Source: Parabacteroides sp. PH5-46
GTDB lineage: Bacteria > Bacteroidota > Bacteroidia > Bacteroidales > Tannerellaceae
Assembly: GCF_029892785.1 (NCBI RefSeq)
Contig: NZ_JARXXA010000017.1
Span: forward strand, 1-64,000
Length of the DNA: 64,000 bases
Reading direction: 5' to 3'
The notes below the pieces were generated by a model. That model saw nothing but the letters and a program-made list of their open reading frames with translations, ran no database searches and was not told the DNA's origin. Each line of letters opens with the position of its first letter. The first letter of the stretch is position 1. Below are positions 32,156 through 55,259 of the stretch, in pieces. The translations under genes and the position numbers were made by a program.

Positions 32156-32710
32156 TTAGTGCTGATGTCCGCAACCGCTGCAACCGCCACTTTCGCAGCC
32201 ATCGTCGCCACAATCACAGCCACCTGAAGAAGACATAGAAGCTATTTCCTCTGCTGTAGGCTCATGTACATCTATAACTTCACCGGTAAAGTTCAAGGTT
32301 TCTCCGGCCAAGGGATGATTGAAATCCATTACTACAACGTCATCTTTCACTTCAATAACAGAACCATTCAAACGATTGCCGTTTGAATCCATCATCGGGA
32401 CGGTATTTCCTTCTTTAATCATTTCTGCATCGAACTTACCATCTACCTCAAATATATTCTTAGGAAGCTCCAGCAGGTTTTCTTCGTTATATTCGCCATA
32501 GCCATCAGCCGGAGATATAGTAAAGTTGAATGAGTCGCCTACATTCAAGCCTTTTAATGCATCTTCAAAGGCGGGGAGCATCATGCCCGTACCGAAGATA
32601 AAACTCAGAGGCACCTCGGCTGTTGCTCTCTCCATTAATTCCCGTTCGTCACCTTCGCCTACGTTCAGGTCGTAAGTAACCGAAACGAATTTATTTGTTG
32701 CAATTTTCAT
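32156..32710 (-). CDS. slyD: SlyD-type FKBP peptidyl-prolyl isomerase with metal-binding tail
   Basis: A 184-residue FKBP-fold prolyl isomerase. The two-part FKBP domain (FIFGTGMMLPAFEDALKGLN, then FNHPLAGETLNFTGEVIDV) surrounds the insert-in-flap chaperone domain (about 75-125). The last 20 residues are extremely rich in Cys, Gly, His and Asp (GGCDCGDD, CSGCGHQH), the nickel/zinc-binding tail typical of SlyD. In other bacteria SlyD supports metal-enzyme maturation; here the genomic partner is aroC. Confidence 0.92.
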   Translation of the reverse strand: MKIATNKFVSVTYDLNVGEGDERELMERATAEVPLSFIFGTGMMLPAFEDALKGLNVGDSFNFTISPADGYGEYNEENLLELPKNIFEVDGKFDAEMIKEGNTVPMMDSNGNRLNGSVIEVKDDVVVMDFNHPLAGETLNFTGEVIDVHEPTAEEIASMSSSGGCDCGDDGCESGGCSGCGHQH

Positions 32711-32768: not shown

Positions 32769-32874
32769 TCATAGCTCACGAGCTATAAAAAATCGCATGC
32801 GTGCAATTCTGAAATCGCATGCGTGCAATTTTCAAAACGCATGCATGCGATTTTTCAAACGTATGGGCACGTTT
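32769..32874. repeat. Palindrome array A: leader plus four units at 22-bp period
   Basis: Four 18-bp units start at 32791, 32813, 32835 and 32857, exactly 22 bp apart. Units 1 and 2 are identical (AATCGCATGCGTGCAATT). Unit 3 is AAACGCATGCATGCGATT. Unit 4 is diverged (AAACGTATGGGCACGTTT). Each is a near-palindrome flanked by A and T runs, with 4-base spacers. A leader palindrome, ATAGCTC-AC-GAGCTAT (32771-32786), is centred 21 bp before unit 1. The array ends 1 base before the stop codon of the leftward MalY-type gene. Each unit could act as a short bidirectional terminator or as a protein site. The same design recurs at 55.2 kb. Confidence 0.9.
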
Positions 32875-32875
32875 T

Positions 32876-34051
32876 TTATCTGTGCCGAATAGCCTCTTTT
32901 AATGCGGGTAGTGAACGTTCCAACACAGCGCGCGGGCAGCCGACATTCATACGCATATATCCTTCGCCGCCGGAGCCAAACATAGCGCCGTCGTTCAAGG
33001 CCAGCCCGGCATCGTTTACAAACAGGCTTACCAGCTCCTTCCGGCTCAATCCCAGCTCCCGGCAATCCAGCCACACAAGGAAAGAGGCCTGAGGTTTGTA
33101 AACCTTTATCTGAGGGATATTTTCGGCCATATAGTTTGCAACATAGTCTACATTCTGCATGACGTACTGAAGCATTTGCTTCCGCCATTCCTCTCCGTAC
33201 GTATAGGCGGCACGGGTGGCTTCGTACGCAAAAATTGTACCTGCGCTCAGTTCTCTTGCTTCCAGAAAAGTATAGAATTTCTCACGAATAAGGTCATCGG
33301 GTATGATGGCATAAGAGGTTACAATCCCCGCTATATTGAAGGTTTTGCTAGGCGCCATAAATGTGATACTGCACGAAGCAGCCGTTTCCGAAACCGAAGG
33401 AAACGGATAATGCCTGAAAGGAGGATACACCATCTCGGAATGTATTTCGTCTGAGACAACCAGCACCTGATGGCGGGCACAGATCTCGGCCAAACGGGCG
33501 AGGGTTTCTTTCGTCCAGACAATTCCCCCGGGATTATGGGGATTAGACAATATCAATACTTTACACTTCTCGTCGATAATGGATTCCAGCTGATCGAAGT
33601 CCATCTCATACGCGCCCTCTGTCTGCTTCAGTGGGTTGTAAACTACCTCCCGCTGCATGGCTTCCGGCACCAAACGAAACGGATGATATACCGGCGGCTG
33701 GATAATAACTTTATCGCCCGGACGGGTAAAGCAGTCCAACACAAAGGCTATTCCCTTTACAATTCCCGGAATGTAGCTTAACCATTCTTTTTTGATTTCC
33801 CAGGCATATTGAGTATTTAGCCAGCGGATAATGCTATGATAGTAATCGTCGGAAGCAAAGGTGTATCCGAATACTTCATGCGCACAGCGTTTCTTTAGTG
33901 CATCGACAATAAAATCGGGCGTGCGAAAATCCATATCAGCCACCCATAGAGGCGTAAGATCCGCCTTGCCATAAACCGTTTCCAGAGCATCTACCTTTAT
34001 ACAGTTTGTTCCTTTGCGGTTAATAATCTCATCAAAATTATATTGTTTCAT
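32876..34051 (-). CDS. MalY/PatB-family PLP-dependent aminotransferase or C-S lyase
   Basis: A 391-residue class I/II fold PLP enzyme. The N-terminal PLWVADMDF is typical of the MalY/PatB branch (cystathionine beta-lyase-like). NPHNPGGIVWTKETL binds the cofactor, VVSDEIHSEMVY gives the cofactor aspartate, and APSKTFNIAG contains the Schiff-base lysine. The conserved arginine is in the GYMRMNVGCPR segment near the C-terminus. The likely reaction is beta-elimination of cystathionine or cysteine conjugates; a plain aminotransferase cannot be excluded. It is monocistronic with its own -7 box. Confidence 0.92.
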   Translation of the reverse strand: MKQYNFDEIINRKGTNCIKVDALETVYGKADLTPLWVADMDFRTPDFIVDALKKRCAHEVFGYTFASDDYYHSIIRWLNTQYAWEIKKEWLSYIPGIVKGIAFVLDCFTRPGDKVIIQPPVYHPFRLVPEAMQREVVYNPLKQTEGAYEMDFDQLESIIDEKCKVLILSNPHNPGGIVWTKETLARLAEICARHQVLVVSDEIHSEMVYPPFRHYPFPSVSETAASCSITFMAPSKTFNIAGIVTSYAIIPDDLIREKFYTFLEARELSAGTIFAYEATRAAYTYGEEWRKQMLQYVMQNVDYVANYMAENIPQIKVYKPQASFLVWLDCRELGLSRKELVSLFVNDAGLALNDGAMFGSGGEGYMRMNVGCPRAVLERSLPALKEAIRHR

Positions 34052-55131: not shown

Positions 55132-55237
55132 TTATAGCTCGTTAGCGAAAAAAAATCGCACGTGTCCTTTTTATAAATTGCACACGTGCGTTTTTGAGAT
55201 TGCATGCATGCGTTTCTAAAATCGCATGCATGCAATT
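55132..55237. repeat. Palindrome array C: leader plus four units at 22-bp period
   Basis: Units start at 55154 (AATCGCACGTGTCCTTTT), 55176 (AATTGCACACGTGCGTTT), 55198 (GATTGCATGCATGCGTTT) and 55220 (AATCGCATGCATGCAATT), exactly 22 bp apart with 4-base spacers. A leader ATAGCTCGTTAGC begins at 55134, 20 bases before unit 1. That is the same leader and the same offset as in array A. The array lies between the convergent ends of rnhB and the DUF5107 gene and has the same orientation relative to the leftward gene as array A. Confidence 0.9.
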
Positions 55238-55259
55238 TTTCAGCATATAACAATGAGTT

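Follow-up and report, generated by a model that had tools for sequence, protein, structure and literature searches.

What are the four near-palindromes, set at exactly 22-bp intervals, that lie between a malY-like and a slyD-like gene of Parabacteroides sp. PH5-46? The window, i.e. the whole stretch of 64,000 nucleotides that was analysed, contains this array together with a second one, and the features that matter here are the following:

32156–32710, minus strand: slyD-like FKBP-type peptidyl-prolyl isomerase gene (ORF list), downstream in the direction of malY transcription
32771–32786: leader or cap palindrome ATAGCTC-AC-GAGCTAT (sequence; empty-site comparison; analogous cap elsewhere)
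32790–32877, plus strand: whole array of 4 x 22 bp, overlapping the last 2 bp of malY on the stop codon side
32790–32809: unit 1, AAATCGCATGCGTGCAATTC (position matrix and single-unit calling)
32812–32831: unit 2, AAATCGCATGCGTGCAATTT, whose inner 18-mer is that of unit 1
32834–32853: unit 3, AAAACGCATGCATGCGATTT, the one nearest to the family consensus
32856–32875: unit 4, CAAACGTATGGGCACGTTTT, the most diverged, with the phase kept
32876–34051, minus strand: malY/patB-like aminotransferase gene (ORF list), the upstream neighbour, whose 3' end abuts the array
55151–55238, minus strand: second four-unit array, between convergent genes

The name slyD was given from sequence features and malY was taken from an earlier note on this DNA, neither with a family search behind it. 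That note had described four units at an exact 22-bp period, two of them identical and two diverging towards malY, and this description holds for the array at 32790–32877: the spacing between its 20-bp near-palindromes is 22, 22 and 22, units 1 and 2 share the same 18-mer, and units 3 and 4 diverge. Our 20-mers start at 32790, 32812, 32834 and 32856, the 18-mers of the note one base further on. Unit 4 falls below the 12-bit single-unit threshold when units are called individually. Scored as a whole with the family matrix, the array reaches 109 bits, whereas the best score in shuffled sequence is about -55; with this score and 48 collinear copies in the genome, the array and its period are far beyond chance. 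The separate palindrome announced 21 bp before the first unit was likewise found, its centre 21 bp ahead of that of unit 1 and hence nearly in phase with the array. It belongs to the segment that is missing from the malY-slyD gap of relatives (see below), and in other array copies its position is occupied by an analogous cap hairpin, TTACTTCRTGTAA. The palindrome is most readily taken for a flanking 'cap' unit that has degenerated.

The array is one member of a dispersed family, something that the earlier note had missed. A DNA search of the PH5-46 genome matched about 40 places, and an 88-position model recovered 48 strong arrays across the whole 4.42 Mb, including the two in the window, all collinear with the model and without indels; below these, the scores drop steeply to a few weak places, mostly a second family (described below) or partial copies. 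A position matrix, applied to part of the genome, picked up 41 four-unit arrays there. When units were called singly and with free spacing over ~880 kb, neighbouring units were 22 bp apart in 123/123 cases, forming 39 groups of four and 3 groups of three (with a weak fourth unit), plus 8 singletons, which is about the chance expectation. The MAFFT alignment was gap-free for 37 arrays with a mean column identity of 80%, while mean pairwise identity between copies was 71% (range 61–88%). Units are separated by 2–4 bp only, and the linker positions 21 and 22 are near-random in sequence (0.21 and 0.09 bits) at an invariant length. The zero-indel count applies to loci collected by similarity, among which arrays decayed past recognition would escape (two clearly decayed places, L239 and L248, were noticed), and it could partly reflect descent from a few master copies. 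Outside the source genome, no array match was obtained by BLAST against 40 relatives, in 18 same-genus draft genomes, or in plasmid, phage and IMG/VR collections, and Rfam returned no family at gathering score, with sub-threshold chance matches only.

The family consensus of a unit is AAAWCGCATGCATGCRATTTNN, but each unit position has its own consensus, and unit 1 runs in the opposite orientation to units 2 and 3. Units inside one array resemble each other no more closely than units taken from different arrays (z -4.0 to -0.1), which argues that the four-unit block was inherited whole and did not originate, or become homogenised, by slippage. Strict purine-pyrimidine alternation, which makes DNA Z-prone, occurs in 80 of the 164 unit cores; it was set aside, many well-phased units interrupting the alternation.

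Nearly all mapped arrays (40/41) are intergenic. Twenty-three of the 41 lie in tandem gaps, 12 in divergent and 6 in convergent ones, a mix similar to the background of all gaps measuring 100 bp or more (94 tandem, 52 divergent and 23 convergent, i.e. 52/169 divergent). Stop codons facing an array lie at a median distance of ~26–30 bp, and gene starts mostly at least 80 bp away. Such placement is to be expected of a tolerated insertion and lends no particular support to termination. The flanks carry further conserved features in part of the copies, namely the cap TTACTTCRTGTAA on both sides of the array and a distal GAAAAATACAATAAGG on one side, at a near-constant 78–82 bp. As to terminal inverted repeats (TIRs), part of the copies have a TTACA.GAAGTAAAA cap in inverted form and, distally, a conserved ACAATAAG, both of them absent at the window copy. 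A flank search for an autonomous element sharing the array ends returned copies linked to arrays, along with short or partial matches, and nothing else. The arrays are short, non-coding, multi-copy (48), dispersed and intergenic, as a MITE would be.

The history of the window copy can be approached through two relatives (G017 and G010), whose malY-slyD gap is intact, ~120 bp shorter, and contains neither array nor leader palindrome. Since the array is missing from this gap in both, a lineage-specific insertion or gain at malY is a simpler reading than loss in the relatives. Same-genus genomes are ~71% identical in DNA to the source genome, and at this identity the boundaries of the empty sites in G017 and G010 are too diverged for a target duplication to be read. 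Judged by dispersal and this one empty-site comparison at ~71% identity, the element may be mobile or may have been so in the past.

The source genome harbors a second, smaller family of arrays, with exactly three units at 22 bp whose cores are GTATGCATAC or CTATGCATAC, followed by GTATTAATAC and a related third unit:

C12:956 (span L238:969-1031): three-unit array
C6:107992 (span L240:1992-2060): three-unit array
C8:56258 (span L241:1958-2035): three-unit array
C5:7100 (span L259:1478-1540): three-unit array

The earlier note had made its case depend on related genomes carrying such phased arrays; the array sequence was found in 0/18 same-genus drafts, and it is the architecture, with other cores, that recurs in the same family and order. 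A scan of the genomes of 85,000 species with two GCANNNNTGC units at 22 bp as query returned nine stretches, eight of which belong to Bacteroidales or unclassified Bacteroidetes (Tannerellaceae, Paludibacter, Prolixibacteraceae and one 'Bacteroidetes bacterium'), the ninth being a tandem repeat of Ruminococcus; the cores differ among the stretches (AGCT, CCGG, TGCA). A further case is G235, a genome from the same family, where ~35 arrays are built from AAAA-N11-TTTT units with a GC-rich core of the GGCCGGCGGCC type, unrelated to that of the source genome. Their spacing is exactly 21 bp in 105/106 cases, and 29/35 arrays have exactly four units. About 20 of these arrays occupy the centre of an element and are flanked by its long inverted repeats (CACATAAAAGTTTT...ATCAGCGTTTCGGGTGAAAGG and complement), the remainder lacking such flanks. 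That the same design occurs with an unrelated sequence in a related genome suggests that geometry, not letters, has been preserved.

The G235 half-sites are of four discrete types (CGGCC, CAGCC, CAGGG and CGGAG, read outward), the combination of which varies from array to array in a manner resembling a combinatorial code, with the outermost halves nearly always CGGCC (L159-L197). The two halves that meet at the first linker show a negative correlation (z -3.7). Alongside the GGCCGGC family, the same genome also contains array families with TCTCTTAGATG, ACTACCGGTAGT and ACACCGGTGT cores at ~22 bp (L163, L164, L172, L173, L180).

In looser relatives (G123, G333, G152 and others), the number of units in the 22-bp arrays varies: G123 (L148, L155) and G333 (L158) reach 7–11 or more units of the AACCCCAACGTTGTGGTT or AAAACGTAAGCACGTTTT type, and the long G123 array in L148 is followed by further 42-bp repeats. 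Between orthologous Paludibacter arrays (L086:6943-7100 and L091:6222-6283), the length differs by exactly 88 bp, i.e. four 22-bp units, so that unit number can shift there by whole units. The bare skeleton, AA-N14-TT four times at period 22, is present in 105/393 Bacteroidales genomes; its period-20 control is also frequent (29/124 genomes), hence the skeleton is not specific and we claim no order-wide excess, period 22 being commoner than period 20 in a few genomes only and not clearly so otherwise. Across periods 17–29, the skeleton occurs in the source-genome and G235 stretches at periods 20–23 only, with peaks at 21–22, a descriptive result given that these stretches were picked for their arrays. 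We claim the architecture where arrays were read, namely in the source genome, G235, G041, G042/G044/G045, G043 and G152, and less surely in G333 and G123. The strong array families are restricted to some lineages.

The observations to be explained are the number of copies, their exact unit count and phase, their position between genes, a position-specific consensus, gain at a single locus and recurrence of the geometry around an unrelated core. The reading we prefer, tentatively and at somewhat less than even odds, sees in the array the conserved core of an intergenic repeat that is dispersed, non-autonomous and MITE-like; this core, with its dimeric sites in helical phase, would serve as a platform for a candidate protein. 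The core would consist of four imperfect palindromes, AAAWCGCATGCATGCRATTT, each of the size of a dimer site, and its period of two helical turns would turn all four towards one side of the duplex, as the earlier note had supposed, a supposition that fits the spacing of 22 in 123/123 cases here and of 21 in 105/106 in G235. Four dimers of one sequence-specific protein would then most likely bind cooperatively on this common face, the candidate binder being either a recombinase responsible for the element's spread or an architectural or regulatory protein of the host. We infer that the array is bound by a protein, that this protein is the reason why the phase has been kept, and that the element moves now or did so formerly.

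Equally, the palindromes could function in a single-stranded, folded form, adjacent or nested units pairing, as ssDNA or RNA, into one or two long hairpins. These would be read by a Y1/HUH-type transposase (RAYT/IS200-like) or by an RNase, as in REP/BIME or PATE-type elements, an explanation that we regard as possible but rather doubtful. Predicted folds of the arrays are far more stable than those of shuffled sequences on both strands (z -3.9 to -5.6), the G235 arrays forming one hairpin in which units 1-4 and 2-3 pair and those of the source genome folding as 1-2/3-4 or as 1-4/2-3, and some loci (L068, L063, L036) have perfectly complementary neighbour units with compensated changes. When units were recombined among loci, however, the predicted energies of the source arrays changed only slightly (real vs recombined, -34.0 vs -32.8 and -34.5 vs -32.0 kcal/mol) and those of G235 did not favour the real arrays (-43.1 vs -46.7 and -45.0 vs -45.6 kcal/mol); since recombination does not consistently weaken the hairpin, pairing of particular units is not clearly selected. 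Complementary covariation between units 1 and 2, with z 4.1 under matrix orientation, falls to z 1.6–2.5 once the arrays are oriented by flank, statistics that ignore the shared ancestry of the copies. As to the enzyme, the source genome encodes three Y1_Tnp genes, with a complete array ~200 bp upstream of one and a single unit upstream of another (L083, C8:119940-120580, and L084, C1:131954). None of the three has an array unit on both sides, a GTAG or CGTC tag lies within 12 bp of the array edge in just 1 and 4 of the 41 arrays, respectively, and the Y1 genes bear different, REP-like palindromic flanks of their own, e.g. GGCGGCGCCAGCC. These flanks speak against a Y1/RAYT origin of the arrays. 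Finally, hairpins would tolerate indels in the linkers and none was seen there; a linker of fixed length and random sequence is more easily explained by duplex phase than by hairpins, and for this reason we favour the protein platform.

The earlier note had proposed that the A/T-run flanks let each unit act as a mini terminator in both directions, which would make the arrays bidirectional terminators or insulators between genes, composed of A-run/stem/T-run modules in series. A-runs and T-runs do flank the units on both sides, and the arrays do lie near gene 3' ends, at a median of ~26–30 bp past the stop codon. The proposal nevertheless fares poorly, and we consider it unlikely: the intrinsic-terminator scan made no call at the window array, the arrays are neither depleted in divergent gaps (12/41, against 52/169 in the background) nor enriched in convergent ones (6/41), and termination requires neither an exact helical phase nor an exact count of four. 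Even less probable, and strongly disfavoured, is a passive minisatellite expanded by slippage and copied along with neighbouring DNA. Period-22 tandem arrays elsewhere do change in unit number, as the Paludibacter difference illustrates, and long tandem arrays occur in G123 and G375; in the source genome, by contrast, four is the constant number, sharing an array does not make units more similar than belonging to different arrays, and each unit position has a consensus of its own.

Should the platform reading be right and the phase indeed have been kept for a protein, each genome would contain tens of high-order binding platforms, and the array could be used as bait. Interspersed bacterial repeats are usually defined by sequence or by hairpin, whereas here it is count and helical phase that are fixed, at 71% identity. 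A contrast between spacings differing by half a turn can separate action as duplex DNA from action as a folded strand for a bacterial repeat. More speculatively, and with lower confidence than for the platform reading, the Bacteroidales may possess a class of dispersed chromosomal docking sites in which three or four near-palindromic dimer sites keep a distance of exactly two helical turns, whereas the letters that the protein recognises change from genus to genus; the partner would be a novel, co-evolving protein, acting in DNA binding or recombination, whose oligomeric architecture is fixed and which has tens of sites in each genome.

How do the arrays compare with known systems? As the earlier note had stated, no common class accounts for their phasing, neither CRISPR nor tagged REP elements explaining them. 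A CRISPR array needs unique spacers of ~26–40 bp and was rejected for units only 2–4 bp apart, as was the intrinsic terminator class on the scan and gap data given above. Among the closest known systems is BrickBuilt, a MITE of Porphyromonas gingivalis whose 19 copies carry 23-nt tandem repeats between a leader and a tail; the number of repeats ranges from 1 to 22.8, indels reach 6%, and the TIRs, GAGACCTTTGCA, are IS5-like (PMC4596501). Both are dispersed, intergenic tandem arrays of short repeats in Bacteroidales, with predicted long stem-loops and no transposase. Unlike BrickBuilt, the arrays described here are fixed at four units with a period of exactly 22, no indels and other ends, BrickBuilt-type TIRs not being seen at them; this distinction was drawn from the published description of the BrickBuilt architecture. 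With the REP/BIME/REPIN elements mobilised by RAYT (TnpA-REP), the arrays share short imperfect palindromes that are intergenic, grouped and present in tens of copies (PMC3733652, PMC2817692), as well as the Y1 transposases in the genome. They differ from them in lacking the GTAG/CGTC tag and a RAYT flanked on both sides by the array palindrome, and in forming fixed, helically phased fours instead of variable groups and dimers.

Serial protein sites of ~22 bp on one helical face are known from the iterons of plasmid origins and from the right end of Tn7, which are single loci made of asymmetric direct repeats; our 48 arrays are dispersed, intergenic and near-palindromic, with no replication or transposition gene attached. 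ERIC-type palindromic MITEs, i.e. imperfect palindromes of 100–200 bp found between genes in tens of copies, share with the arrays these imperfect intergenic palindromes and their copy number, and we know of no helically phased internal unit structure in them. The literature, in which subscription journals were thinly covered, yielded no described repeat defined by four helically phased palindromes. By analogy with these systems, the arrays would work like a multi-site protein platform and spread like a MITE.
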